Source of the DNA: a virus
Reading direction: 5' to 3' (one strand)
Virus record (IMG/VR): IMGVR_UViG_3300013132_000336
Coordinates: 1-20,331 of that record
DNA: 20,331 nucleotides
Position 1 is the first letter of the stretch; each line of letters begins with the position of its first letter. Position numbers and translations under genes: made by a program. A model generated the notes under the pieces. The model saw only the letters and a list, made by a program, of their open reading frames with translations, had not been told where the DNA came from and ran no database searches. Positions 5,188 to 20,276 of this stretch are shown here, one piece after another.

Positions 5188-5371
5188 TTACCCGTGGATG
5201 CTGATGGATAAAGGCGATGCTGTCTTTGTACCCACGCTCAATGAGGAGATAACAAAAGAGGAAGGGCTGAAGTCAGCCCTGTCCTCCGGAAGATTCGTCA
5301 AACATCAGTTCGGAATATTCGACGGCAAGCTTGGTGTGTTGTTTATTGTGATGCGTAGAAAGCCTGATTAG
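5168..5371 (+). CDS. Small conserved phage protein (YPW...GDAVFVP type), start uncertain
   Basis: This frame encodes KKLEINYPWMLMDKGDAVFV followed by a basic, aromatic C-terminus (LGVLFIVMRRKPD). The YPW-x-M-x-x-GD-x-x-F-x-P opening resembles short phage proteins I associate with a DUF7303-like family (remembered pattern: YPF-x-x-M-x-x-GDSFF), so the N-terminus probably includes YPW. That favours the TTG at 5168 (67 residues) over the ATG at 5198 (57 residues), although neither has a clear ribosome-binding site; a GGAG at 5179-5182 is 15 bases from 5198. Translation may depend on coupling to the overlapping primase gene. The last 29 bases overlap, tail to tail, the end of the giant gene on the other strand. 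The function is unknown. Confidence 0.55.
   Translation: MKKLEINYPWMLMDKGDAVFVPTLNEEITKEEGLKSALSSGRFVKHQFGIFDGKLGVLFIVMRRKPD
5263..5280 (-). terminator. Candidate intrinsic terminator of the leftward virion operon
   Basis: AGGGCTGA (5263-5270) and TCAGCCCT (5273-5280) are perfect inverted repeats, giving a 7-bp stem with a tetraloop. Read leftward, the hairpin lies about 63 bases beyond the stop codon of the giant gene and is followed by a T-rich run (TCCTCTTTTGTT). This is the right position and polarity for an intrinsic terminator of the - strand operon, placed inside the opposing small gene. On the + strand no T-run follows, so it would be one-directional. The T-run is interrupted, hence moderate confidence. 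Confidence 0.45.
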
Positions 5372-8300
5372 CCGCTCTTGATAGGGCAATCTGCGCCTTG
5401 CGGATGTTGTCGATAGACTCCCGCTTCTCCGGTCCAGACTGGGAAGACTGAAGAACAAGCCTACGCATTGCCGCCAAGTTAGCCATCTCTTTTCTAATCT
5501 TTGCCGAAAAATCAGCGAGTGCTATGTCGGTGCTGTAATCCTGTGCAAACTTAACAGCATCTTCACCACGACCTTCGGTAACCATCTTGTTAAATGTGGC
5601 TTTGGCTTTCTCTGAGCGTTCAGCGTTCTCGTAGAAAAGTTCTATCGCACCACTAGCGTCCTTGGGTTGGAACAACGCGCCCACTATGGGCAGGGTAGAC
5701 GCCCTACCTGACGGAGCTTCAACATCTGGTTTATCTAGCGCCATTAGATTCAATGCTTGCATGGTGGCGATACCCAACGAACCTAGATGCCCACGGATAA
5801 AGTAGTCAACCTTGATTGGCGACACACCTGCGACACTGCCCAAGAACTTAGCAAACTCAGTGGTGTTCTCACGGTACTGTTCTGCGGGTAGGAACTGCTG
5901 TTCTCTACGAGACACAATCGACTGGTCTGTATAGAACGAATAGTTGGTAGCCACTTCAATACCGGGCTTCAAGAATGTCGGAATATCACCCGGCACCGAC
6001 TGCATCAACAGCTTGCTAATACCCTTGATGGCTTTTCTAGCATCATCATCACCCTTCGCCAAATCAATAGCAGCTTCGGGTATAGCCTTGAACATCAGGC
6101 CGACTTCAAACGGAATGGGTACACGAACGGGTTCATCTAGTCCGGGGATACGCACGAACCAGTTTGCATACTTCTCAGTACCGGCGTTCTCATATGTCTC
6201 GTCATCGTCCATCATGGCGGCATAAGCAAGCGTCACAGCCGTAAGGACCATACCCCTAGTCCAAAACTTGCCGCGTTGGTTCAGCTTCTGGGCAAACGGC
6301 ATCTTGCCAAACATTGCTTTGTACGTGACGTTTAAGCCTTGAATCTGTGAGTACAGGAACGGAATCAGCATGTTGCCCATGTACAGGCTGGGCGACAGAC
6401 CACGCTTGTTGTAGTTCATAGACTCCATCGTTGCATAGGTTGCTTCCATATCAGACAGTCCCTGCTTACGGAAGTCGTTGTATATACGCACACGGGACGC
6501 CGCATCAGCGGCGGATGCCATCAGGTCTGCCTTAGCTGCGAGCTTGGAAACCAAGCTGCCATCACCCTTGGTGATTTGCAGGAGAATCTTTTGCATGTCA
6601 TCCGGCAAACCGTTCAAGGTTTGACCACCAAGAATCAGGCGCTGTTGCAGGGCTTCATACCCTTCACTCTTACCCCGCATGATATCTACGTACTCTTTGG
6701 CAGCACCAACCACGGGTTTACCATCAGCCCCGGTAACAAGCCAGTTGTTAGTGGAGTCACGAACAATTTGCCGCGCAACATATACGGGGTTTCTGGTAAT
6801 CGCCAACCGCAGCCACCTAGTAGGAACAGCCATCGCACGGAAGAATGCTGGGATGGTAGCGCGGATACCTTCCATACCCTTGATGAACAAGTCGGCGGGG
6901 ATACCGATAGCTTCCATTTGTTTTTCATTCAGCACGGCATAGTAGTCTTCGCCATTGTGCTTGAAACGAATCACGTTGTAGGCGGCTTTGCCGGTACCTT
7001 TGAAGATACCGTTGTATTCTTTACCGTCTTTACGTTTCTTGGGGTTGCCTTTATCGTCGAGCGGAACTTCAAGCAGACCGGAGTTAGCCATAGCAAAAGC
7101 CGTCTCTTTGGTAGCTTGATTACGCAGCGCCATCTCGGTAAGTAGGCGGGTGTTTTGCAGGGAACCAGTAAAGAAATCAAGGATGGGTTTATCCCCACCA
7201 ACAAGTTGTTGCAGGTACGGTTGGTTCTTGATGTCACCGATAACCACAGGCAGAACTTCATCACCGATAACTAGCTCAGCGATGCCGCCATTCATACGGT
7301 AGAACGGGAAGTATTCTTTGTCTTTGATGAGGCGGTCTCGTTCCTTCTCGCTCATAGCACCGGTCTCAACGAGGAAGTCGAGCAACCCTTCGTTGTATTC
7401 CTTGTACATCTTACGAGCTTCACGGAAAGCAGGGACGCTATCACCGGCAGCAAACGCGGCATCAATCTGTTCTTTTGTGATTAGTTTTTCTGCGAAGTCG
7501 AGCACGCTCTTCTTCTCTTGCTTAGCTCGAACAGCCGCCATGTACAGAGAGAACGCTTCATTCACAGCGTTGGCATCACCGAAAGTTTCCTTGGCTTTGT
7601 TTAGAATCTCTGCAATCTTGGCGAGGCTAGCGCTCTTCTTACTAACCAGCGTGAACTGCGTTACCTTTTTCCCGTTACGTTCCACTTCTTCTTTCTGATA
7701 AGTAAGTGGTCCATTCGATGCCACCTCAGCCGTAGCGTTGTTTGCGTAGTCGTGCATACGCAGGTGGTACATCATCTGAAGTGCTTGAGCTTCATCCTTC
7801 ATGTAGGCGGCGGCACGTTCAACCGGGGCAAGGCGGTCAATCCACTGAGTAGCGCCAGCAAGACCAACCAAGTTAGCCTTAATACTGGCGATAAGGCCCT
7901 TGTCCTTACCGATGACCCCGCCCTTAGCAATATCTTGCATAGTCTTAGCGGCATCGGTATCAGCCCACTTCATACCCCCAAGACGATATGCAACTTGTCC
8001 AGTCGGAGATATGTATACACCGGGGCGATTTTTACCCAGCGTTTGTTCTGCATCACGGATAATCTTGTAGATGTCGCTAGTGCTGACCTTATCCAGACCG
8101 AACGAAGTGAAGCCCATCTTCTTCAGAGCAGCGCGTAGCGTACCGACAATCTCTTTGATGAAGCGGTTGGCTTTCTTGAGGAACCCTTCGGTAGCCCGTT
8201 GCTGAGTTGTGTAAGCAATAAGTTCACGGACTTGTTCTACCGCATCACCACCGCCTGCCTTTGTGTTTACCACACCTTCAGCTACTTCCGGGCCAAGCTC

Positions 8301-11300
8301 TTCAGCCAACTTCATGATGCCGCCGGGTTGTGCTTCGATACTCTTGGTCAGCGCTTTCATACCGCTATCGCCAAGGAGTGTATCTACCCCATAGTGGCCG
8401 GTGATTTCATGGACGGCGGTGGTTTCAAGGTCGGCAACAGAAGCATGCTTATCACCAATAACTACAACAGTACCATCTGGAAGGATAGCACCGCGAGCAT
8501 CAGCTTTATTTGGAAGAACATCTTTAACACTTTGTGGTAGCCCATCATAGGTGTATGCGTAAACAAACTTCACACCCTTCGGCAGCTTAAGCCCATCAAC
8601 CGCAGCCTTAGCTACATCTTCACTGATTGGAGTTTCTGCTATCGGACCAGTTCGCCAGCTAATACCACTGCGGATATCAATGACGTTGTCGGAGTCTTCA
8701 AAGCTTTTGGCGGCTCGCTTGATACGTTGACGGACTTCGGCAGCAACAGCCTTATCCATAGCGGCTGTGTATTGCGAACTATCGGGGCCGAACTTTCGCA
8801 AAGCTGTCTGAACACCTGTACGGTTTTGAGCAGTAAGCACAACTTCTTCAGCTTCTCCCCTAGAAATACTGTGTTCACGCGCAGCCTTGGTGATAAAGTT
8901 AGCTTCTGCTTTGGGTGCCAACGGCTTAGCCGCCGTTACACGTTCTTGCCTGCGCAGAGTGGCGGCAGCGCCAACTGCTTCTTCAAGTAGAGGTTTAAGT
9001 TCTTCGCGTTGCTTTGCAATCTTAGCAAGCTTTTCTCTGTCTGCTTTGGTTTTGCGCGGTTTAGCTTGAATACGCTTTTCTGTTTCGTTAAGACCTCGTA
9101 GAAGCACGTTTGCTTCATGCGCTGATAGCCTCTTATCACCAGTGCGAAGTTTATCCAGAGTATCAATAACTTCAGGACCAAACTTAACAACCATTTCAAG
9201 GTCAGCAACTTTCTGCTCAACAGAAGGAACAAGCGCTTTGTCTTCGGGTTTACGGCTTTTCTTAAGCTGTTCCAGAAGTTTCTTAGCATCGGCAAGTACT
9301 GCCTTAAACTGCTCTTGCTCAAAGTCTCTAATAGGCTTGATTGATTCTGTCTTGCTTGTAATTACTTGCACAACCTTGCGTTGCAACGGGGTTTCTTTGT
9401 CGGCAATCTGTACACCAAGGTCAGAAATCTTGGATACGATGCGGTTATATTCGGTGGTACCTTTCTTACCCGCATCTTCAAGTTCTTTACGCTTAAGGCT
9501 AAGTTCATGCCGTTCTTTACGAAGCGCTTTGGTTTCATCAGTAGAGACGGTAAACATCTGACCCGTAGCACCGTACACAACTTCAGACGTAACCCGCACA
9601 CCTTCCTTACCAACAGCTTCAAGGCGGGTCTGTTCTGCAATACGGTCAGCTTTTGTCTTTGCTTCAGCGGCTAGACGAACGGTGCCGGTGAGCGCTGCTT
9701 CCGCAGCACGGCGCACTTCAACTTCTTTCTTGATGTCTCTAGTTTCTTGTAGTTTGCTATTGGCGGTTTGCTTTCTAGTTTTGATAACAAGCTCACGGAT
9801 TGCGGATTTAATTTCGCTCTTTTTAGCCGTAAGGATTGCGGTCTGTTCTGTGGTATCTTTTCTAGCGGCGGTAGCGCCAGCCTCGCGGGCAGCAGCAGCG
9901 CGATATACTCCGGCCAAATCACGGAAGCCTTGGATGATGTTCTCATATGCATCAACAGCATTTACGTATGCTTGCTCTGCATCAGACAAAGTTTGCAGAG
10001 GCCAATGAGTCTTTACGATATCTAGTTTGGTTTTGGGTGCAAGTTCGTTAACAGCCAAGGTCGAAGAAAGTTCTTTTGAAATACCCTTAAATGGCGCAAC
10101 GTAGGCATCCAGTTTTTCTTTGACTGCGGTAACTTCTTTCTTTAACCGCTCAATGCCGCTGTTAAGAGTACGTGCCTGCGTTGAACGAGGAGACACTCCT
10201 CTGCGGAACAGTTCTTCGCGCTGTTCCTTTAGCTTATCTAATTCTTTCTCAAGTTCTTTGAGCTTGGCTTTTTGTTTCTCAGATTCTTCACGAACCTTCT
10301 TTGCAAGCTTTTTTACGTTGTCAAGGCTGCGCCCAAGACCGGTGGTGACGTTTGTAATAGCATTTTCAGCTTCTCTAGCTTGCCTAAGTAGCTCGATAAC
10401 CGCGCCTTTTTCCTTGGGGCTTAGGCCCTCAAGTTCTTTCTCAATATCTGCCAGTTCTTGTTGAAGGACTTTAAGTCTAGCCTGCGGTGTCTTGGCTTCC
10501 TTCTCCGCTGCTTTGCGTTGCTCGGATTCAGATAGCGCTTTAAGCCGTGCGGGGGTAGTACGCTCAACCGCTGGGGCACCAAACAAATCCGCTTGCTTGC
10601 CTTCTTGCTGCACCTGCTGGATATTCTTTAGCTCATCTTCAATACGAGCAGCAACCGTTTCACCACCACGACGGGCAACAGCCTCATCTGCAAGGTCCAT
10701 CAACTCATTGGTGGCAGTACCATCAACAGCCGCAGCTTGTGCTTTCTCCAGAGCCTTGAGGGTGTCGGCGTCATATTCACCACCCCGACGCAGAGCTTGG
10801 TCAATCTTGTTGGCAGTGAAGTCCCGCCGACGCATAAGCTGCGTGGCAAGAGAGGGTTTGGTACCCGGAATAGTCTTAGTCTTTCTGCCTTCTAGTTCTT
10901 TTATTTCCCGTTCAAGCCGGGCAATCTCGGTGGGCTTATTGAATACAGTTGTTGGCGCACCGTACAAACCAAGGCCGGGACCGGCGGTAGTCTGCGATTT
11001 AACAAACTCAAGTTCACGGCGCTTAGCCGCAATCTCCATATCAATGTCGCCTGCTTCACGGACAGGACGTTCACGGTCAGCGGAGGGTTCACCCTTAAGC
11101 GACGCTTCTTTAGCGGCAAGATTCTTTTCACTGGGAGAGGTAAGTTCAAACTCACCTGTAGCACCACGCAGCACACCACGGTCAGCAACCACACTACGAA
11201 TGTTCTTTTCAACAGACCGCATCAACCCTTCATTCAGAGTCTCAGCCCGTTGCTGGAAGGTGCGGTTAAATTCGCCTACAACTTTGCGTCGTACTTCGGG

Positions 11301-13829
11301 TGAAAGCTTCTGGTCTCGCTGCGCATCAAGTTCTTCAAGGCGCTTATTGAACTGCCGGATATACTGAAGAACCGTATCGTCCAACCCATACAGCTTTTGT
11401 AGTCGGTCAAGTGAGGCATCATCGTATGTGAAGCGGCGTTGTTCTGCCGTCCGGGTATCTTCACCCATCTCTTCTTCACCACGCTTAAAGGCTTCCTTCT
11501 GGTAGACCCGTGTAGTTGGCGCAGAGGTGCGAGTAACTAATTCATCGAGCAGGTTTTTGGTTTGAACCGCTAGCTTAAGAGCATCGTCTTGACTAAGACC
11601 AGACCGGCCAAGTGCAGCACGTTCAGCGGCGGTGCGGTAAAGAACCGCATTGATGTACTGCTTCTTTGTTTCTTCAATCTTGGTTTCAAGATTCTGGCGA
11701 ACGTCCTGCATGCCGATAAGCTCCCGGCCACGAACACCACCCTCACCGCCAATAAAATTACGAGCGCGCAAATCTTGCGCAAGGTTCATCAGGTCAAACT
11801 GACTAGTGTTCTGCGCGTCTTGGAAGTCTTGAATTACCCGCGTGATTGGACGACCACGATGAATGTCTTCAGTAATTTTAATCGCGTTGACAGGACCCGA
11901 AGGCTTAAGGACGTTACCAATTTTGTCAAAGATATCATCAACAAAACTGTTCTTACGGGCAGTCTCGGTAACATCTTCATACTGTTCTTGCGAGCGAGCC
12001 AGTCGTTCTTCAGGCGTAAGCGCCGCTTCTTTAGCTTTCTCAACCTTGGCGTTGTATTTGTCGAGGGCTAGTTGGTAAGTACCAGCTTTGGATTCGCCTG
12101 TTTTTGCATCGTAATACCCAAAAATCTTTCTACGTACAGTCTCTGCACGTTTTGTGGCTTCTTCAATTGCCTTATCACGGGGCATGCCCTTGGCAATGTA
12201 CTCATTAAACTTTTGCTCAAAGGCGGCTTCAATTTGAGAAGTATCCGCAACTGGTCGTTCAGGAAGTTCAAGAGGCTTGCGTTGCTCCGTTGCGGCGGCT
12301 TGTTGTTCAAGCAGAGACTGCCGGTCTTTGAGTTCTTGTTCTGCCGCAAGCTTGGCATCAATCTCGGCGCGTTCGCGGTCTGCCGTTAAACGCTCCATAC
12401 CCATCTCAAAAGAGAAAGACTTTAACTTCTCTTCGTTCTCTGCAATCTGCGGGGTGAGCTTGCGAATCTTATCAACGTCACCCGACTCGCCTGCTTTCTG
12501 CAACTGCGAGCGGAGCTTCTTCAGGGTAGATTCAACATCAGCGCGGTCAAACGGGGTCCTAAATTCAAAGCCCGCCTCTTTAGCTTGCGCCTGCAACGCT
12601 GCAATGGCTTCTTCTTGCTGTTTAAGAGCGGGGTCTAGTTGTGTAAGTTTGGCAATATCCCCGGCAGCAGCGGCCTCAGCAAGCTGTTCTTTTAGTGCCT
12701 CAATCTTTTGGCGGCTACTTTCATATTCTCTTTGAAGCCTGATGGGGCCTTCGGCCTGCCCTGCACCTGCTCCGTATCCGGTAGCCAGTGCCTCCATCTG
12801 CTTACGCTGCGCAAGCAATGCGTCTTGTTCAGCTTTTTGTTTGGCAGCTTCTTCTTGTTTAATCTTGGCCGCGTCTTCACGGGCGGCAGCTTTTTCGCTA
12901 AACCTACCAACAGTGCCAAGCGGTGACAGCAACCCTACAGCGTAGGCAGTATCGAGGTATTCTTTCTGAGCATCGTCATCAAGCAGGTCTTTGCCAGCTT
13001 GCCAACGCTCAAGCATTTGTTGAGCAACTTCAGTTGGAACTTCCGCAAGCGCACCGACAGCGGTACCACGGAGTAGTGTTTGTTTTGCGCTTTCGCCAAG
13101 CAGCTTCTTTGCTTTAACGGCGGCGGCTTCGGTTGCTTTCTTAGATGCTTTGGTTATGTCTCGACCAAGAACCGCGCCAATAATCTGCTTACCAAAAATA
13201 AAACGCTGAGTACCTACATCAAGCGCAGCCTGCGGAGCAGCAGCAAGAGCGGCTTTACCTGCTTCGATGTCTTGGATGGGTTGACCAGCCGCTTGTTTCT
13301 CGGCGGCTTGCCGTTCAATGTTTCCACCAAAAGCTTGAACGAGAGACGGGACTGCGGCACCACCAATACCACCAATAACAGTACCGATACCGGGAGCAAC
13401 AGCAGTACCAGCCATAGCGCCAAGACGAGCGCCTGTAGCCATGCTTGCAATGAAAGGAGCCTGCTCAGTGATAGCGCCGGGAATTTGCTTGACGGCTTCT
13501 AAACCAGCGGCAAGAGGGCCGCTCTGTTCATTTGCTCGGAGTACATCTTCAAGGCTTGCACCGGGGCGTTCAGTGATAGCTTGGCTTCTAGCCAAACCAC
13601 GACGCGCTGCGGCATCAGCGCCAAAGGGGGCTTCAAGAGCAGTAAGCCCGGTAGCAGCAAGTCGTTTGAGTCCACCAAGACCCGCTTCTAACGGCCCACC
13701 AGATTTGGGTTTGGATGCTTCTGCTATGTGGGATTTAACAGCCGCTACGATTTGTTCATGCGAAGCCCCCGCAGGGCCTTCTATTTCATAAACCTTTCCG
13801 TCCGGTCCTGTAACTTCGTAGATTGGCAT
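5343..13829 (-). CDS. Giant (2828-residue) polyvalent virion protein with HEXXGH zincin-like centre and LPD38-like C-terminus
   Basis: This is one uninterrupted 8.5-kb frame, with ATG at 13829 behind AAAGGTGG (13833-13840). Order of parts: residues 3-36 are a small N-terminal domain (YEVTGPDGKVYEIEGPAGAS); 127-169 are a glycine/alanine-rich hydrophobic stretch, a possible membrane-interacting segment; there are long Lys/Glu/Arg/Ala coiled coils (about 355-560, 1110-1215, 1330-1530); at about 1735-1920 is a putative zinc metallopeptidase with HEITGH (1807-1812) and a later VRELIAY whose E1869 may be the third ligand; at about 2330-2700 is an LPD38-like region (RNPVYVARQIVRDSTNNW; a SMNYNKRG motif; IPFLYSQIQG; SPIKVDYFIRGHLG). 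LPD38 and zincins are recurrent parts of 'polyvalent proteins', injected with phage or plasmid DNA. Position at the end of the virion operon supports an ejected internal virion protein; the molecular function is unproven. Confidence 0.85.
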   Translation of the reverse strand: MPIYEVTGPDGKVYEIEGPAGASHEQIVAAVKSHIAEASKPKSGGPLEAGLGGLKRLAATGLTALEAPFGADAAARRGLARSQAITERPGASLEDVLRANEQSGPLAAGLEAVKQIPGAITEQAPFIASMATGARLGAMAGTAVAPGIGTVIGGIGGAAVPSLVQAFGGNIERQAAEKQAAGQPIQDIEAGKAALAAAPQAALDVGTQRFIFGKQIIGAVLGRDITKASKKATEAAAVKAKKLLGESAKQTLLRGTAVGALAEVPTEVAQQMLERWQAGKDLLDDDAQKEYLDTAYAVGLLSPLGTVGRFSEKAAAREDAAKIKQEEAAKQKAEQDALLAQRKQMEALATGYGAGAGQAEGPIRLQREYESSRQKIEALKEQLAEAAAAGDIAKLTQLDPALKQQEEAIAALQAQAKEAGFEFRTPFDRADVESTLKKLRSQLQKAGESGDVDKIRKLTPQIAENEEKLKSFSFEMGMERLTADRERAEIDAKLAAEQELKDRQSLLEQQAAATEQRKPLELPERPVADTSQIEAAFEQKFNEYIAKGMPRDKAIEEATKRAETVRRKIFGYYDAKTGESKAGTYQLALDKYNAKVEKAKEAALTPEERLARSQEQYEDVTETARKNSFVDDIFDKIGNVLKPSGPVNAIKITEDIHRGRPITRVIQDFQDAQNTSQFDLMNLAQDLRARNFIGGEGGVRGRELIGMQDVRQNLETKIEETKKQYINAVLYRTAAERAALGRSGLSQDDALKLAVQTKNLLDELVTRTSAPTTRVYQKEAFKRGEEEMGEDTRTAEQRRFTYDDASLDRLQKLYGLDDTVLQYIRQFNKRLEELDAQRDQKLSPEVRRKVVGEFNRTFQQRAETLNEGLMRSVEKNIRSVVADRGVLRGATGEFELTSPSEKNLAAKEASLKGEPSADRERPVREAGDIDMEIAAKRRELEFVKSQTTAGPGLGLYGAPTTVFNKPTEIARLEREIKELEGRKTKTIPGTKPSLATQLMRRRDFTANKIDQALRRGGEYDADTLKALEKAQAAAVDGTATNELMDLADEAVARRGGETVAARIEDELKNIQQVQQEGKQADLFGAPAVERTTPARLKALSESEQRKAAEKEAKTPQARLKVLQQELADIEKELEGLSPKEKGAVIELLRQAREAENAITNVTTGLGRSLDNVKKLAKKVREESEKQKAKLKELEKELDKLKEQREELFRRGVSPRSTQARTLNSGIERLKKEVTAVKEKLDAYVAPFKGISKELSSTLAVNELAPKTKLDIVKTHWPLQTLSDAEQAYVNAVDAYENIIQGFRDLAGVYRAAAAREAGATAARKDTTEQTAILTAKKSEIKSAIRELVIKTRKQTANSKLQETRDIKKEVEVRRAAEAALTGTVRLAAEAKTKADRIAEQTRLEAVGKEGVRVTSEVVYGATGQMFTVSTDETKALRKERHELSLKRKELEDAGKKGTTEYNRIVSKISDLGVQIADKETPLQRKVVQVITSKTESIKPIRDFEQEQFKAVLADAKKLLEQLKKSRKPEDKALVPSVEQKVADLEMVVKFGPEVIDTLDKLRTGDKRLSAHEANVLLRGLNETEKRIQAKPRKTKADREKLAKIAKQREELKPLLEEAVGAAATLRRQERVTAAKPLAPKAEANFITKAAREHSISRGEAEEVVLTAQNRTGVQTALRKFGPDSSQYTAAMDKAVAAEVRQRIKRAAKSFEDSDNVIDIRSGISWRTGPIAETPISEDVAKAAVDGLKLPKGVKFVYAYTYDGLPQSVKDVLPNKADARGAILPDGTVVVIGDKHASVADLETTAVHEITGHYGVDTLLGDSGMKALTKSIEAQPGGIMKLAEELGPEVAEGVVNTKAGGGDAVEQVRELIAYTTQQRATEGFLKKANRFIKEIVGTLRAALKKMGFTSFGLDKVSTSDIYKIIRDAEQTLGKNRPGVYISPTGQVAYRLGGMKWADTDAAKTMQDIAKGGVIGKDKGLIASIKANLVGLAGATQWIDRLAPVERAAAYMKDEAQALQMMYHLRMHDYANNATAEVASNGPLTYQKEEVERNGKKVTQFTLVSKKSASLAKIAEILNKAKETFGDANAVNEAFSLYMAAVRAKQEKKSVLDFAEKLITKEQIDAAFAAGDSVPAFREARKMYKEYNEGLLDFLVETGAMSEKERDRLIKDKEYFPFYRMNGGIAELVIGDEVLPVVIGDIKNQPYLQQLVGGDKPILDFFTGSLQNTRLLTEMALRNQATKETAFAMANSGLLEVPLDDKGNPKKRKDGKEYNGIFKGTGKAAYNVIRFKHNGEDYYAVLNEKQMEAIGIPADLFIKGMEGIRATIPAFFRAMAVPTRWLRLAITRNPVYVARQIVRDSTNNWLVTGADGKPVVGAAKEYVDIMRGKSEGYEALQQRLILGGQTLNGLPDDMQKILLQITKGDGSLVSKLAAKADLMASAADAASRVRIYNDFRKQGLSDMEATYATMESMNYNKRGLSPSLYMGNMLIPFLYSQIQGLNVTYKAMFGKMPFAQKLNQRGKFWTRGMVLTAVTLAYAAMMDDDETYENAGTEKYANWFVRIPGLDEPVRVPIPFEVGLMFKAIPEAAIDLAKGDDDARKAIKGISKLLMQSVPGDIPTFLKPGIEVATNYSFYTDQSIVSRREQQFLPAEQYRENTTEFAKFLGSVAGVSPIKVDYFIRGHLGSLGIATMQALNLMALDKPDVEAPSGRASTLPIVGALFQPKDASGAIELFYENAERSEKAKATFNKMVTEGRGEDAVKFAQDYSTDIALADFSAKIRKEMANLAAMRRLVLQSSQSGPEKRESIDNIRKAQIALSRAANQAFYASQ

Positions 13830-13842
13830 AACCCACCTTTAT

Positions 13843-15609
13843 TTAACTAGCGGGTTTCTCACGAACTTTAAATCCGTCAGTACCTCCACTGCTCCCCGCT
13901 CCAAGCATTTGGGTAATTTGTGCGTCAGTATACCCTAAAGTTTTAATCATGCGACGTTGTTCTTGTAGCAGTGCATTTGACGCCTTAACCGGGTCCCCAA
14001 TAAGTGTTGTGTCTATCTCAGCAAGAGCAATAAAATTCTTACGCGCATTATCAAGCGCATTATTAATCGCTTGTTGTTCTTTGTTGCCATACGCAATCTC
14101 GGCCACTTTGGAACGGACAGACGCTTCAAGGTTGGCAATCGCTCTATTTGTAGCATCGCTTCTAGCTGCAATACCTTCGCGTGACTGTGTTTCATAACCA
14201 CTGGTCAGCGCTCTAAGATTGGCTTCAATTGCTTTGACTTCGCGTTCGGCCTTGGCCCCGGCATATGCCATAAGCCCACTGTTTCTGGCGGTGTTTGATG
14301 CAATAGCGCCCTGCTTAAGAGTCATATCAAAATTGAACAACCGTTCTTGACCCTGCAAGAACTTAGCCTCTGCCTTTTCAAACTGCCCAACCTTACGCAG
14401 TTCTTTGCTTTCTTCAATAAGGTCAAGGGCCTTGTCCCTCTCATTAGCTGCTTTTGATAGGTCCTTACGCACAGTGCCAAGCATACCCGCAAACTGCCCA
14501 ATCCCCTGTTGAAAGCGCTCACTTCCTATAGGTGCAGAAACAAGCGTGCCTGCAAGAGCAATTAGTGCCTCGCCTTTACCAATGTTAGATTCTTTTTCAG
14601 CGCGTTGATATGCTTCAGTAGCTCGCTGTTCTCGTTTTGTGGATAGGGCTTCAAGCCCGGCCTCACGGTCTTGAATCGTCTTTAATGCCGCAGCTTCAGA
14701 TACAGGAACAATTTTTTCAAGCTGGGTTCGTTGGTCCTTAAACTTATCTAAATACTGTTCAGTTGTGTATCCAAATTTGTTCGCAATGTTCGGGTCCGCT
14801 TCAGCCGCCGCAGCAATACCGCCAACATCAATGTCACGTATTTTTTTTGTCGCCGCATCTGCAAGAGTTCTAAACTTACCAAATGTATTTGAGCCAGCCC
14901 CTGCGTTATCAACTGTAAGAAGAGGAAGAGCGTCTTTATCAGTAAGCGCGGGGGCACGACCGGCGGGGGGGGCGGGTGGCGGAGCAGGAGGGGGCGGAGC
15001 AGGGGCAGGGGCAGGGGCAGGGGCAGGGGCAGGGGCAGGGGCGGCGGGTCTCGCAGCCAGATTCGGAAGGCCCTCAATAGGACGACCCGCTTGGAACGCT
15101 TGCAGCAGACGGGTGTACTCAGCTTCCTTACGCCGAACCGTGTCCTCAGAACCCTTGGGGGTAGGCAGAAACATGGGGCCTTTAGAATCAATCCAAGCAC
15201 GATACGCAGTCTGTACTTCTGCCTCAGTCGGAACACGGCCACCTTCTGTAAACGCCACAATACCGCCGGAGGCCATGCCTCGCTCGGTCATAACATCGCC
15301 CGCAGGGAGAGCGCCAATACCCACATCTTCGGGGGCTGACTGCTGTGCTTGCGCAACTACTTGGTCTTTAACGGTAGAGGCTGGCGGTTGTTGACCGGCT
15401 TCTCTGGCCTTCTGTGCCTTGAGTGCGGGGCCAAGGATATTCAGTGCCATAGTGGCATACATCGAGTCCACACCGTTTTGAGCGGGGGCGCCATTGGCAA
15501 TATTAACCAACGCCTGCATGTTCTTTCTACCCATAACAAGCGCCCGAACGAGGCGGTCATCACCTACACCACCTTCCTGAATACCCGCCATACGCGCCAA
15601 TACACTCAT
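13843..15609 (-). CDS. Putative virion protein with Pro-Ala linker and coiled-coil C-terminal half
   Basis: This 588-residue protein has its ATG at 15609 behind AAGGAAAA. Residues 1-90 are helical. At 114-127 is a SGGIVAFTEGGRVP motif, similar in style to glycine-loop motifs of other phage virion proteins. Residues 188-217 are a proline-alanine linker encoded by a hexanucleotide repeat. From about 250 to 560 the protein is alanine/glutamate/lysine/arginine-rich and largely helical (for example ELRKVGQFEKAEAKFLQGQE), with one short hydrophobic patch (ALIALAGTLVSAPIG, about 355-370). The end is GAGSSGGTDGFKVREKPAS. No enzyme motif is visible. It lies between an Ala/Gln-rich virion protein and the giant polyvalent protein, which suggests an internal or ejection protein of a podovirus-like particle; that is inference from order and composition. 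Confidence 0.65.
   Translation of the reverse strand: MSVLARMAGIQEGGVGDDRLVRALVMGRKNMQALVNIANGAPAQNGVDSMYATMALNILGPALKAQKAREAGQQPPASTVKDQVVAQAQQSAPEDVGIGALPAGDVMTERGMASGGIVAFTEGGRVPTEAEVQTAYRAWIDSKGPMFLPTPKGSEDTVRRKEAEYTRLLQAFQAGRPIEGLPNLAARPAAPAPAPAPAPAPAPAPPPPAPPPAPPAGRAPALTDKDALPLLTVDNAGAGSNTFGKFRTLADAATKKIRDIDVGGIAAAAEADPNIANKFGYTTEQYLDKFKDQRTQLEKIVPVSEAAALKTIQDREAGLEALSTKREQRATEAYQRAEKESNIGKGEALIALAGTLVSAPIGSERFQQGIGQFAGMLGTVRKDLSKAANERDKALDLIEESKELRKVGQFEKAEAKFLQGQERLFNFDMTLKQGAIASNTARNSGLMAYAGAKAEREVKAIEANLRALTSGYETQSREGIAARSDATNRAIANLEASVRSKVAEIAYGNKEQQAINNALDNARKNFIALAEIDTTLIGDPVKASNALLQEQRRMIKTLGYTDAQITQMLGAGSSGGTDGFKVREKPAS
15002..15042. repeat. Hexanucleotide tandem repeat (GGGGCA)6 plus partial copy
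   Basis: Six perfect GGGGCA units (15002-15037) are followed by GGGGC on the + strand. The region continues a G-rich tract that includes a run of eight G (14965-14972). On the coding (-) strand the repeat reads Pro-Ala pairs, forming the linker of the 588-residue virion protein. The unit is six bases, so gain or loss of copies keeps the frame; the G8 run, in contrast, is a potential frameshift point. At least seven runs of four G give the + strand clear G-quadruplex potential. Confidence 0.95.
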
Positions 15610-15618
15610 ACGTTTTCC

Positions 15619-16659
15619 TTAAGCTAGTGCTTTGTATGCGCCAAGAGCGCCGAGACCTGTACCTATAAGCTGTTGAGTAAAGCCCGGCATCGGTTGAGTA
15701 GTTTGAGTAACTTGCCCAAACAAAGGAGCATTACCACGAACAAGGTCTGACAAGTATGCAATCTGTTCACGCGGATACCCGCGTTGTGCAAGGAAGTCTT
15801 GATAGCGCTGGTCAAGGATACGTTGTTCGCGTGCTTGCTGTTCGCCTGCAATCTGACGTTGTGCTTCAAGACGGGCAAGGTCCGCACGCTGGCTAGCGCC
15901 AGCTAATTCTCCAAGACCTAGAGCAGACTGCAACGAAGTGCTAAGCCCGGCGGTGCCTACCTGTGCACCCAAACCAGCAGCCTGCGCTGCTGCAGCCCTA
16001 TCTCTTTCATACTGCATCTGTGCCTGCTGAAATGCCGCTTCACTACCACGGGCTTGAATATCCCCACGTTGCTGCATCAAGTTACGGCCAAGTTCAGCGC
16101 GTTGAAGAGCCTCAGCAGACCCCCCATACGTACCACGACCCGCCGCCCTCAGCCCAATATCTCTACCCTGAATATTCGCTGCGCGTTGTGCTTCCCGAAG
16201 GGCAATATCCGTAACTGCTTGTTGATAAGGGGAAGAGTAATAAGCCGCTTCATTAGCCCCGAACGTACCCGGCATGTAGCCTAGAGCGCGACCGATGCCG
16301 CCTTGCGCTGTACCAAAACCAAGAGCACCTGTACCTTGAGCGCCAGCCATAGCGGTTTGATATTGTTGAGGAGTACGCAACCCCATAACTTCGGATTGAA
16401 CTCCGCGTTGCTCAGGAGTAAATGAAGCAATTCTTTCACCGGCGTAGGGAATATACGGGAGCGCAGCTACTTCCCGACCTTGTTCAATTACTTCTCGTAC
16501 ATAAGGTACAAGTTCCGGAGGAACCGATTGTTGAACAGTCGTAGTGTTAGCCCCGCCACCTTTACCCCCGCCGCCTTCGGGTTTGATGCGCTTATCGCCT
16601 ACGTGTTGAAACGCTTGCGGGGGTAGGTCGGGGATGTCGAGGAGAAGTCTGCGGTCCAT
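15619..16659 (-). CDS. Ala/Gln/Gly-rich phage virion-associated protein
   Basis: This 346-residue protein has its ATG at 16659 behind AAGGAA (16665-16670), with a 9-base gap to the following gene. Order: an N-terminal segment ending in a glycine-rich flexible stretch (GGGGKGGG, about 29-36); VPPELVPYVREVIEQGREVA with PYIPYAGERIASFTPEQ, a motif I recall from virion proteins of aquatic phages; YYSSPYQQAVTDIALREAQR (about 140-160); then a long alanine/glutamine/arginine-rich helical region; and a hydrophobic glycine-rich end (GTGLGALGAYKALA). The composition is typical of podovirus internal or tail-associated proteins. No enzymatic motif is seen. Its neighbours on both sides are virion-type genes in the same operon. 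The functional label stays at 'virion-associated'; an ejection protein is possible. Confidence 0.65.
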   Translation of the reverse strand: MDRRLLLDIPDLPPQAFQHVGDKRIKPEGGGGKGGGANTTTVQQSVPPELVPYVREVIEQGREVAALPYIPYAGERIASFTPEQRGVQSEVMGLRTPQQYQTAMAGAQGTGALGFGTAQGGIGRALGYMPGTFGANEAAYYSSPYQQAVTDIALREAQRAANIQGRDIGLRAAGRGTYGGSAEALQRAELGRNLMQQRGDIQARGSEAAFQQAQMQYERDRAAAAQAAGLGAQVGTAGLSTSLQSALGLGELAGASQRADLARLEAQRQIAGEQQAREQRILDQRYQDFLAQRGYPREQIAYLSDLVRGNAPLFGQVTQTTQPMPGFTQQLIGTGLGALGAYKALA

Positions 16660-16668
16660 ATTTATTCC

Positions 16669-17640
16669 TTAAGCGGGCATGTAGCGTTCGGCTTTGATTT
16701 GCTTGCCTTGCTTGATTGTACCCGTACGGGCTTTACGTACCTTGTCCATCATAGCGTAGAGGCGCTTCGCGCCTGCTTTAGTAGAACCGTTACCAAGGTG
16801 AGAAACAACATCTGCCGGTACAACAAACTCACCATCAGCCAGACGTGCGGGTTGTTTGCCTTCAATAGTGGCTTTGATTGAATCACTCATACCATCACCG
16901 GGGCCGTTTAGATACCCACCCTTCTTGAAGTTACCCAACGGTTCGCGGTACTCGGGCAGGCTACGGCGTGCGTCAAACATACCACTCATAGGATTTATAG
17001 TGGCAATGCCCCCTTCAGCGTAACCCATACGGTCTTCTTGGGCACGGCGACGCAATTCAGAAAACGGAACGAACGGGCCGAAACCAAAAGACATAGGAGC
17101 CGCGCCTTGCGGCTTAGGTGCCATAGCACCAGCCAGACCCAGCGCTGCACCAGCAGCGGGTACACCGACAGAGGACAGCGCGGACTTGCCTGTAATATCA
17201 GCAAAGCGTTGTGCGCCGCCTTCAGTAAACAAGTCTTTGAGTCCTGTACTTACATTAGAAAAACTGAACGGGGCACTAGCTGCGGCAGCGGCATCGGGGA
17301 CGAAAGAAGTAGTTTTACCCAGCGCTCCAGCACCTTCAAGGTATGCTCCGGGGAGGTTTGTAACGGCACCATTAACGCCTTGCATCGCAGTAGTAACAGT
17401 GGGGCTAGCAGCACCAGCCGCAGCGGCACCGGTCTTAGCCAGATTACCGACAGCACCCGCTCCACCATAGCCACCAAATGCGTCAAGTGCGGCAGTGCCA
17501 ATGTCGTTACCCTGTGCAAGCGAAGTCAGACCGGCAATACCAGCGCCTAGTTGAGTGGCAGTAAGCGTACCAAGAGCAGTACCAGCCAACGCCCCTTGCA
17601 GTAGAGGTCCGCCGATTGCGCCGAGAAGCATAGGTAGCAT
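16669..17640 (-). CDS. Gly/Ala-rich virion protein with conserved ADGEFVVPADVVSHLG C-terminal domain
   Basis: This is a 323-residue protein. The start chosen is the ATG at 17640 (MLPMLLGAIGG), preceded by AAAGGG (17648-17653, spacer 7). A longer frame from a TTG at 17694 would run into the preceding gene and lacks a ribosome-binding site. Residues 1-120 are glycine/alanine-rich and hydrophobic, resembling membrane-seeking segments. A GYAEGGIATINPMSG motif follows at about 200. The last 86 residues (238-323) hold KKGGYLNGPGDGMSDSI, ARLADGEFVVPADVVSHLG and AGAKRLYAMMDKVR, a block I recall in many environmental phage structural proteins. The role is probably virion structural or DNA ejection. 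The stop codon overlaps the ribosome-binding site of the next gene, indicating coupled translation. Confidence 0.7.
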   Translation of the reverse strand: MLPMLLGAIGGPLLQGALAGTALGTLTATQLGAGIAGLTSLAQGNDIGTAALDAFGGYGGAGAVGNLAKTGAAAAGAASPTVTTAMQGVNGAVTNLPGAYLEGAGALGKTTSFVPDAAAAASAPFSFSNVSTGLKDLFTEGGAQRFADITGKSALSSVGVPAAGAALGLAGAMAPKPQGAAPMSFGFGPFVPFSELRRRAQEDRMGYAEGGIATINPMSGMFDARRSLPEYREPLGNFKKGGYLNGPGDGMSDSIKATIEGKQPARLADGEFVVPADVVSHLGNGSTKAGAKRLYAMMDKVRKARTGTIKQGKQIKAERYMPA

Positions 17641-17674
17641 AGTATAGCCCTTTTGTTTTGCTAGATTATAAGCG

Positions 17675-18352
17675 CTAAGGTAGCGCCGAAACAAGATTAA
17701 TTGTAAGAATCACGGAGGGGATTGCAGGTCGAGTAGGGCTAGTGCCCGCAGCGTAGTGTTCAAGGTAAACGTTGGTACTGTCAGACCACCAAGCTAACTG
17801 AAGAAAGTCTGTGTCAGGGTCGTTGACCGTGAAGATACCAGTGATTGCAGGGACTATGTGCGCCCAGATGTTTGCGCTTTTTCTGGCCGCTATATCAAAA
17901 CGAGTATTACTGTTTGGGTAGTTGGTGTTGCCATCTTTAGCCCACACTTCAAATTCAGCAGCACTAGCGCCTCGGTTTGTTACTTGTAGGGTAAACGTAA
18001 CTAGGTATTCTCCAGCATAAGGCACATGTATTTGAGAGTTGCTGACTACCGTTATGCCGTTTGTTAGTGTCGGTGTGTCGTACGCAATTAAATTTTCAGA
18101 CGTAGTACCTGCACTGGACTGGTCTGCTGTGCTAATCAGCATTGCATATGGTTGGATAATTTCTTGCCCAAAGCCGGAAAAGATACCCCCAGTAAATCTA
18201 TCTCCAATAAACTCCTCAGCAGTAATCGGCGTCCGAGAATCCAGTTGATTGAAGTATGCGCGTAGTGCGCGTTGGAATTGGTCTTGCTGCCCTTCGTTGT
18301 ATTCCTTTGTAGGCAGGGGGAGCGCGGGTGCCCGGAATTTAACCATAGCCAT
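17675..18352 (-). CDS. Virion protein with C1q/TNF-like beta-sandwich domain
   Basis: This 225-residue protein has its ATG at 18352; its ribosome-binding site (AGGGGG) lies within the last codons of the preceding gene. Residues 6-39 carry PALPLPTKEYNEGQQDQF followed by an LRAYFNQLD signature, which I recall at the start of small phage structural proteins. From about residue 65 to the end the pattern of alternating strands (GITVVSNSQIHVPYAGEY, LVTFTLQVTNRG, FLQLAWWSDSTNVYLEHYA, SVILTINLV) looks like a C1q/TNF-type jelly roll, often used in trimeric capsid decorations or fibre tips. It sits directly after the tail hub genes, so a tail or decoration protein is likely. Fold assignment is by strand pattern only. 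Confidence 0.65.
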   Translation of the reverse strand: MAMVKFRAPALPLPTKEYNEGQQDQFQRALRAYFNQLDSRTPITAEEFIGDRFTGGIFSGFGQEIIQPYAMLISTADQSSAGTTSENLIAYDTPTLTNGITVVSNSQIHVPYAGEYLVTFTLQVTNRGASAAEFEVWAKDGNTNYPNSNTRFDIAARKSANIWAHIVPAITGIFTVNDPDTDFLQLAWWSDSTNVYLEHYAAGTSPTRPAIPSVILTINLVSALP

Positions 18353-18354
18353 AA

Positions 18355-19920
18355 TTACCCCCTACGTCCATCAGGGCGAGCATCAACACGCGGCATACCC
18401 ATCTGCCATTGCACCCCCAGTCCATCCGAAGCAATCTTGTACCGCACCTGCCGCCCACGAGCGCGCAAAAAAACTTGGTTGGTGTACTGGTCAATGATTG
18501 CAGTGGCGGGGTCTTTTACACCAGTAACAGTTTTTGTCAGCCCAGTGTTCTCGGCGTTGTTAGTCTGATATAACTGTCCGGGGAAATTGTGTGGCTGAAT
18601 AGTTAGCTTTACTTGCGGGTCATTGCTGGTTGAGCCAGTGAAGTTGATGTCTGGAATGATGCGTCGGATAAGCATGAATTGCTCGCCGTCTTGAATATCA
18701 ATATCGCCTGATGAGATGTATGACTCCATAGGCCCGCCGTCATCATTTACGCCCCTTTCTTGGTCAAACAACCATCCACTAGTAGCAGCCGCCTGCGGGT
18801 AGGTCCGCAGAGGAGAATCAAGCCAAGCCGTACGTTCAAGCTGGCCGTAGTACCAGATTTGTTCTAAGTAGTTGTAGATAACATATCGGTTAAGTTCGTC
18901 CGAGTTGGCGCTCGGGTAGAACCAGATGACTTCATTAAACTGTTCGTTAGTTCCAGACACGGTTTGTATCTGTGTCTGGCGGTTGATGTCTTGGAAAATG
19001 TACTGGCGCAGGGTGCAAGGCAACGTGTCAACGCGACCGTTATAGAGGTAAAACTTATCTGTACCCATCCAGTAGGTAACGTTGTTGACTGTAACTGTTG
19101 CCGCAGGCGAGACTAGAGAAATGTTGTCAGCAAGTTCATACAAACCAAACACTTCTGATGTGCCAAGGAAGCGCAGAGAGTACAGCGTGGAGTCCGTAAA
19201 TACTAGAATTTCTTCCCGAGTACGTACTGCACGCAGAATCTCGGAGCCGTTGGATACCCGCAGAAAACCGGCGCTATTTGTTGCAGAGGGGGTAAAATTC
19301 CACGGCTCATCTTGGTTGGCCCATCGAATGCCCAGTGGGTCGTAGTTACCAGTGCCATAAGCAGTACCACCAAAAGTCAGCAGATGCCTGTCTTGCTGTG
19401 AAAACAAGATACTACCTACGATTTGTGGTACATCTGATGCGTTTAGCACAGAAGAAAGAAGAACAGCGCGAGTGCTGAAAGTGTTGTCATATTCCCAGTA
19501 ATAGATATCGCCGTTACGGATACAGAACAACAGGTCGTCATTGAAGCGGTCTTGTGTATACAGGCGAGGGGGAGTATTTACCGGGATGTTAGTTGCCGAA
19601 CCCCAAGCACCTCGACTCCATGTACCGGCACCCCACCCGAACCCGTACGCAGCAACTGCTTGCCCACTGTGAATATCAAAAATAAACGAGATAGGCGCGG
19701 TATAAGAAGCTGCGGAAGATGCTGCGGTAGGGGTAGTAACAGTAAACGTGTTTAGCGTAACATTTGAAATCAGGTGGTCGGTGTTGATTTCGGCTGCAGA
19801 GATACCCCCAACAGCAGTATTGACGTTCTCAATAAGTACATAATCTCCATCCAAAGCGCCATGACTGTTCAGGGTAACAGTGATTTGGTTAGAGCCTGCG
19901 GTTGTATTTAGTACGCTCAT
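18355..19920 (-). CDS. Tail hub/stabilisation-type protein, C-terminal part (second frame of a split gene)
   Basis: This 521-residue protein has an ATG at 19918-19920 overlapping the TGA of the preceding frame (ATGA). It contains SHGALDGDYVLIENVNTAVGG, GYGFGWGAGTW-like AAYGFGWGAGTWSRGAWG, DDLLFCIRNGDIYYWE, and DPLGIRWANQDEPWNF, then repeated beta-propeller-like strands (LVFTDSTLYSLRFLG, YWMGTDKFYLYNGRVDTLP), ending LGVQWQMGMPRVDARPDGRR. This pattern matches the large tail/head-completion protein (P22 gp10 stabilisation-like) that I recall from podovirus-like phages. In those relatives the N-terminal PGINRDQT-like part and this part are one chain of about 640 residues; here they are in two frames. 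The last codons hold the ribosome-binding site of the next gene. Confidence 0.75.
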   Translation of the reverse strand: MSVLNTTAGSNQITVTLNSHGALDGDYVLIENVNTAVGGISAAEINTDHLISNVTLNTFTVTTPTAASSAASYTAPISFIFDIHSGQAVAAYGFGWGAGTWSRGAWGSATNIPVNTPPRLYTQDRFNDDLLFCIRNGDIYYWEYDNTFSTRAVLLSSVLNASDVPQIVGSILFSQQDRHLLTFGGTAYGTGNYDPLGIRWANQDEPWNFTPSATNSAGFLRVSNGSEILRAVRTREEILVFTDSTLYSLRFLGTSEVFGLYELADNISLVSPAATVTVNNVTYWMGTDKFYLYNGRVDTLPCTLRQYIFQDINRQTQIQTVSGTNEQFNEVIWFYPSANSDELNRYVIYNYLEQIWYYGQLERTAWLDSPLRTYPQAAATSGWLFDQERGVNDDGGPMESYISSGDIDIQDGEQFMLIRRIIPDINFTGSTSNDPQVKLTIQPHNFPGQLYQTNNAENTGLTKTVTGVKDPATAIIDQYTNQVFLRARGRQVRYKIASDGLGVQWQMGMPRVDARPDGRRG

Positions 19921-20276
19921 GTGATGCTCACCGTGACTGAACCAAGACCGGATGTACCACTAACGCCAGTGGGGGCAAGAATGGTAGTTTGTAAACGGAC
20001 AGGAGTAATATCAAAAAGCGTTTGGCCTGCTTCTACATAGACCTTTACGTTGGTTGCGATACTCAGCAGGTTGTTGCCGTCAGAAGTAACCCAGTTGAAA
20101 AGAGACCGGCATACGCCCAGAAACTCTTCGTTAGGGTAGCGCTCCCAACCGCCAATCTTTTCCGGGAAGCCAGAGCGGAATCTAATTTTATCGCATTCAT
20201 ACCAACCCCCTTCAGACGCATAATTTGTCTGGTCGCGATTTATTCCCGGTTTAAATACAAGTTTACTGAGCGGCAT
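19917..20276 (-). CDS. Tail hub/stabilisation-type protein, N-terminal part (first frame of a split gene)
   Basis: This is a 119-residue product. Its motifs FKPGINRDQTNYASEGGWYE, CDKIRFRSGFPEKIGGWERY, FLGVCRSLFNWVTSDGNNLL and FDITPVR are the usual opening of a phage tail hub/stabilisation protein normally far longer. The frame stops at a TGA (19917-19919) immediately after VTVSIT, and the next frame restarts at the overlapping ATG. The N-terminal motif is intact, so the start at 20276 is probably right although no strong ribosome-binding site precedes it; it overlaps the upstream gene by 14 bases. It is either a genuinely separate subunit or the front half of a protein interrupted by a frameshift. 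Confidence 0.7.
   Translation of the reverse strand: MPLSKLVFKPGINRDQTNYASEGGWYECDKIRFRSGFPEKIGGWERYPNEEFLGVCRSLFNWVTSDGNNLLSIATNVKVYVEAGQTLFDITPVRLQTTILAPTGVSGTSGLGSVTVSIT

Follow-up and report, generated by a model that had tools for sequence, protein, structure and literature searches.

The viral fragment analysed here (20,331 bases; the window) carries one giant gene, and it raises the question of which part of such giants takes them into the phage head and out through the tail. The frame, which lies on the minus strand, starts with ATG and runs unbroken through 2,828 codons (ORF list and translation), exactly where the earlier note, which left the strand unstated, had placed it. As that note also held, the gene closes the virion operon, with leftward virion genes upstream of it and convergent replication-type genes downstream. 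A ribosome-site-like sequence, AAGGTGGG, lies 5' of its start, and 13 bases separate that start from the preceding gene. The same-strand genes upstream encode a PHROG 3287 structural protein (a stabilization protein by its annotation in a relative, phage DSL-LC04) and proteins of 225, 341, 346 and 588 aa; this set includes ejection and structural genes, the virion or late setting in which polyvalent proteins are found. The downstream neighbour is convergent and belongs to a block with a DUF927 primase/helicase-like gene and further replication-type genes; a single terminator-like hairpin lies in between, where 0.6 would be expected by chance. The features of the locus are as follows.

5263..5280, minus strand: terminator-like hairpin 3' of the giant gene (1 found against a chance expectation of 0.6)
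5343..13829, minus strand: giant gene, 2,828 aa, cysteine-free (ORF, translation and cysteine count)
13843..15609, minus strand: 588-aa cysteine-free neighbour (p588), candidate ejection partner (gene list and cysteine count)
15619..16659, minus strand: 346-aa DNA ejection protein (PHROG; ej346), cysteine-free (phrog_4287, E=8e-14)
16669..17694, minus strand: 341-aa Gly-rich cysteine-free neighbour (p341), candidate ejection partner (gene list, gene order and cysteine count)

Contig scans revealed relatives in about 60 viral contigs, which have the C-terminal module and the gene order in common. Of the 36 relatives whose contigs extend far enough upstream, 35 have an ejection protein homologue ahead of the giant; at 39 of 40 loci, an opposing replication block follows it. 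Thirty-nine giants are complete (the window's included), at 2,085 to 3,223 residues; the C-module is present in all, the N-module in most and the middle in almost none. The comparison thus singles out the zincin and C-module as the sole common part, with the other parts exchanged around it. A second assembly of the window virus (L002) contains residues 1-1840 of the giant at 100% identity. The giant of contig L010 is 67% identical to that of the window over residues 343-1735 and 73% identical over residues 1736-2828, with dN/dS values of 0.13 and 0.15, respectively, which are rough because synonymous sites are near saturation. Judged by these ratios, the giant frame is a real gene under purifying selection. 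No relative was confirmed as a prophage in genome contigs, in a scan limited by the peptide patterns used, and plasmids gave no match.

The C-terminal half provides the link to purified particles, and its two features are these.

5346..7916, minus strand: C-module, residues 1972-2828, common to all relatives (profile and sequence comparisons)
5685..6179, minus strand: LPD38 (PF18857), residues 2551-2715 (hmmscan E=6.2e-30, 105 bits against a cut-off of 27)

LPD38 was found in 35 of 35 relatives scanned and is listed as phage-type only among polyvalent-associated domains (Iyer 2017). Its match, well above the cut-off, bears out the LPD38-like end proposed from the letters alone and gives the giant a polyvalent-associated domain. 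Profile comparison returned both LPD38 and, for the zincin, the C1 domain of the N4 virion RNA polymerase (vRNAP). We found that the C-terminal 1,070 residues of the giant align with the last 1,095 of JC1 gp69, a Bcep22-type DarB-like protein of 4,515 aa, over 950 columns (hhalign with the A4 C-half profile, E=7.3e-26). The zincin region and the C-module align almost end to end, LPD38 included, and gp69 is likewise cysteine-free and closes its morphogenesis module. Unlike the giant, in which Pfam gave no SLT match of the T7 gp16 type, gp69 has a lytic transglycosylase; it also has LPD3, below-cut-off methylase and SNF2 helicase matches, all absent from the giant, and another N-terminus. In virions purified on CsCl, 51 unique peptides of JC1 gp69 were detected (PMC9144972). 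By profile alignment, then, one and the same module makes up the C-terminal half of the giant and ends a purified-virion protein, and the polyvalent-type virion protein that the earlier note had postulated gains both a domain and a relative detected in particles.

Other relatives agree with this picture. PTXU04_00025 of Escherichia phage PTXU04 (2,198 aa) is homologous to the giant in its C-half, LPD38 included, at 23% identity from residue 1737, and resembles it there in both sequence and fold; it too is cysteine-free and the last large gene of its virion operon, whereas its N-module is not recognisably common and its middle is different. N- and C-terminal fragments from uncultured Caudovirales (A0A6J5PFI7, A0A6J5T7D3 and A0A6J5Q8J2; BFVD/UniProt) match both models of the giant. 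Two of the three are named large polyvalent protein and the third is annotated RelA/SpoT; their C-terminal fragments are 20-29% identical to the giant. Among solved structures, neither profile nor sequence searches with the whole giant, the C-half, the N-module or the middle gave a match, and Foldseek against the PDB returned none under E=0.03, with VIA-align giving small helical overlaps in the last 100-odd residues only. For the C-module in particular, sequence, profile and fold searches found no solved relative. Matches to DUF1090, PDT, ESAT6, VMAP-M4 and vRNAP_dom_2 fell under curated cut-offs and were taken as chance.

Directly ahead of the C-module lies a predicted metallopeptidase.

7917..8612, minus strand: zincin-like metallopeptidase domain, residues 1740-1971 (motif, model and hhalign to N4 vRNAP C1)
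8394..8411, minus strand: HEITGH (HExxxH), residues 1807-1812, a motif conserved in complete giants
8223-8225, minus strand: Glu1869, predicted third ligand (Glu aligned in A4 and A6)

When residues 1687-2828 are modelled with AlphaFold2 (mean pLDDT 72), HEITGH sits on a helix (112-146 in model numbering) preceded by strands and Glu1869 on a second helix (177-190), a zincin-like arrangement. The earlier note was right about a zincin but misplaced it at the centre of the protein, and the motif has the form HExxxH rather than HExxH. This spacing is unusual for the predicted zincin; an HExxxH variant of polyvalent peptidases was described in 2017 (PMC5512222). The motif occurs in all 39 complete giants, as HExxGH in 19, another HExxxH in 2 and HExxH in 18. 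At residue 1468, the L047 giant reads HELGHYG where close relatives read HELVGHYG, so HExxH and HExxxH interconvert by a single-residue indel. The zincin is the sole predicted enzyme domain recognised in the giant (Pfam search; model of residues 1-1000), and after delivery it would cut either the giant itself or a host protein.

The N-terminal module is present in fewer relatives, and its features are as follows.

12825..13829, minus strand: N-module, residues 1-335 (kept in 24 relatives at 25-49% identity)
13716..13829, minus strand: beta-beta-alpha mini-domain, residues 1-38 (AlphaFold2 pLDDT 86-89 across residues 1-30)
13335..13442, minus strand: residues 130-165, hydrophobic and glycine-rich, a candidate for membrane insertion (top 19-residue hydropathy of the giant)

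The N-terminal mini-domain noticed earlier emerges in the model as a confident hairpin plus helix. We also found it at the N-terminus of a protein of podovirus MW202713 (hhalign E=9e-7; HMM E=6e-6) that matches a PHROG DNA ejection protein. In six relatives (L014, L046, L021, L029, L040 and L045) other short sequences replace the hairpin and helix in the first 40 residues, so the N-terminal tip looks like an exchangeable cap. Identity to the L010 giant is 29% ahead of residue 343 and 67-73% from there onward, and this drop points to an exchange of the N-module. The hydrophobic glycine-rich stretch of the earlier note corresponds to residues 130-165, the most hydrophobic of the giant, and comparable hydropathy peaks recur in the N-modules of relatives. 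On hydropathy, this segment is a candidate for membrane insertion, with a peak of 1.47 that is under that of a typical transmembrane helix. The N-module matched neither the N-terminal domain of the N4 polymerase nor JC1 gp69 nor PTXU04_00025. The DNA transfer protein of DSL-LC04 was rejected as a match, having a weak glycine-rich stretch only in common (probability 5%).

Between the two ends lies a long region in which the earlier note suspected hidden enzymatic modules. It divides as follows.

12030..12797, minus strand: long helices, residues 345-600 (AlphaFold2 pLDDT mostly >80, maximum 96)
10830..12029, minus strand: helical middle, residues 601-1000 (AlphaFold2 and comparison with L010)
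8760..10229, minus strand: residues 1201-1690, charged and fast-evolving (identity to L010 of 43-53% across 1201-1600)

Modelled with AlphaFold2 (mean pLDDT 68), residues 1-1000 are all helix beyond the first 38, and the coiled coils predicted earlier appear there as the long helices of residues 345-600. Residues 561-1000 are the part best kept against L010 (79-83% identity) and residues 1401-1600 the least (43%). The aromatic content of residues 1000-1690 is 3.5%, and residues 1201-1690 are probably a helical spacer, to judge from composition and divergence. A profile of residues 601-1000 matched the L010 giant alone among complete giants, and a scan for further relatives of the middle returned the window virus itself and the L010 contig. 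No Pfam or NCBIfam match in the middle exceeded its cut-off, and this result and the helical model to residue 1000 lend no support to the suspected modules. Because the middle is under purifying selection against L010, it is functional; because LPD38 is the sole Pfam domain accepted in the 35 scanned relatives, it looks like a helical scaffold and not a known enzyme.

Together, these data suggest that the giant belongs to the LPD38 polyvalent class and serves a podovirus-like phage as an ejection protein that is threaded into the host with the DNA, holds its N-module in the envelope and cuts with its zincin, a reading that we consider likely as a whole. Homology, gene order and the absence of cysteine indicate that the giant is very probably delivered into the host with DNA; ejection, envelope anchoring and self-cutting are inferred. 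The C-module would pack the giant inside the head. The cysteine-free, mostly helical and loosely folded chain would then be threaded through the tail, either together with the DNA or before it, and the N-module (mini-domain and glycine-rich segment) would insert in or cross the envelope alongside the smaller ejection proteins encoded upstream. The middle may serve as a variable helical spacer or scaffold, and the delivered zincin would cut the giant itself, as seems most likely, or a host protein. The earlier note was correct about the class and about almost all features. The class was already known; what is new is the family member itself, together with the cysteine signature, the comparison of modules and the C-half in common with a virion-detected protein.

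The giant could instead be mainly an injected anti-defence effector, carried in the head like DarB of phage P1 and acting in the cytoplasm against restriction or other immunity. Polyvalent proteins have been proposed as conflict proteins (PMC5512222), and LPD38 relatives bear methylase and SNF2 helicase, RelA/SpoT, inorganic pyrophosphatase and, weakly, ADP-ribosyltransferase domains or annotations. Such effector domains are, however, absent from the giant and from 35 close relatives; Pfam found no DarB-type pair of DNA methylase and SNF2 helicase in the giant. Moreover, PTXU04_00025 was needed for plaque formation in a screen in laboratory E. coli BL21 (PMC11879866), so a core step, and not merely a conditional defence, seems to be involved; the same study lists it among genes that are toxic or interfere with infection upon expression. 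We thus consider a mainly anti-defence role unlikely, an anti-defence activity of the giant being possible but without domain support.

The ejection reading draws further on cysteine. The giant has 0 cysteines against 24 predicted from codon-position composition (P about 3e-11), and the 39 complete giants have 5 in 103,838 residues, 36 of them having none. In the window, p341, ej346 and p588 are cysteine-free like the giant (5343-17694). Across neighbour families, cysteine occurs at 0.34 per 1000 residues in ej346 and 0.07 in p341, against 7-12 in the stabilization protein and 12-14 in replication genes. The ejection proteins of T7, P22 and N4 show the same contrast: they contain 1 cysteine in 7,864 residues, whereas the remaining morphogenesis proteins of these three phages contain 89 in 12,389 (Fisher P=4e-18, indicative only, since residues are non-independent). 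Cysteine is also absent from T7 gp9, P22 gp8 and N4 gp56, which have no known ejection, so its absence supports ejection but is not decisive. These counts bear on a second alternative, in which the giant stays in the particle, un-ejected, as an internal head or tail protein, a packaging scaffold or a tape-measure-like rod. Its long helices would suit such a role, and the N-half has weaker fold matches, short of significance, that include tape-measure proteins; but its neighbours are ejection proteins, it lacks the cysteine found in the same operon's stabilization protein family, and the comparable giants of N4 and DEV are ejected, which together make this role very improbable.

Ejection of the N4 and DEV giants is established, and their layout is comparable to that of the window giant (PMC12633501, PMC10925440). 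N4 virion RNA polymerase gp50 (3,500 aa) resembles our giant in having a zincin (C1) ahead of a large helical C-terminal domain and in being cysteine-free; unlike the giant, gp50 contains an RNA polymerase, and its C2 and N-terminal domains have no match in the giant. That the giant is a degenerate N4-type polymerase, with the polymerase lost or diverged beyond recognition, is so improbable that we disfavour it despite the similar position and size, the match of its zincin to C1 (hhalign E=1.2e-6) and the common lack of cysteine, since no vRNAP profile matches the giant at E<=1 where four match the N4 protein, C1 aligns but C2 does not, and the middle to residue 1000 models as helices.

The absence of cysteine has been reported for N4-type polymerases and attributed to passage through the tail (PMC3915230); in the literature searched, it was found for these RNA polymerases only and not as a general rule. 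Tentatively, and with slightly more doubt than belief, we propose that near-absence of cysteine may be a general signature, readable from sequence alone, of phage proteins ejected through the tail, one that marks the ejection blocks of uncultured phages gene by gene, and that the zincin and LPD38 may form a transferable packing-delivery cassette for varied payloads. If true, the cysteine rule would be a cheap predictor of injected proteins in uncultured phages.

Several minor observations concern individual loci. The giant of Achromobacter phage CF418P1 (L067, 8822-16876) is annotated as a putative portal, probably a mis-annotation; it carries LPD38, an inorganic pyrophosphatase and LPD3. In that of Planktothrix phage Pag-Yong1 (L072, 3-8321), LPD38 is accompanied by an ADP-ribosyltransferase match that stays below threshold. 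Cysteine is likewise missing from the final four large virion-operon genes of DSL-LC04 (L070). The stabilization-type gene of the window (18355-20276) consists of two overlapping frames of 119 and 521 aa with an ATGA overlap; it is one frame in DSL-LC04 and L004 and is split identically in L002. One 12-base gap is the sole difference between L002 and the window across 12,022 bases, and it fits the lengths of 588 and 584 aa for the Pro-Ala-repeat protein (13843-15609).
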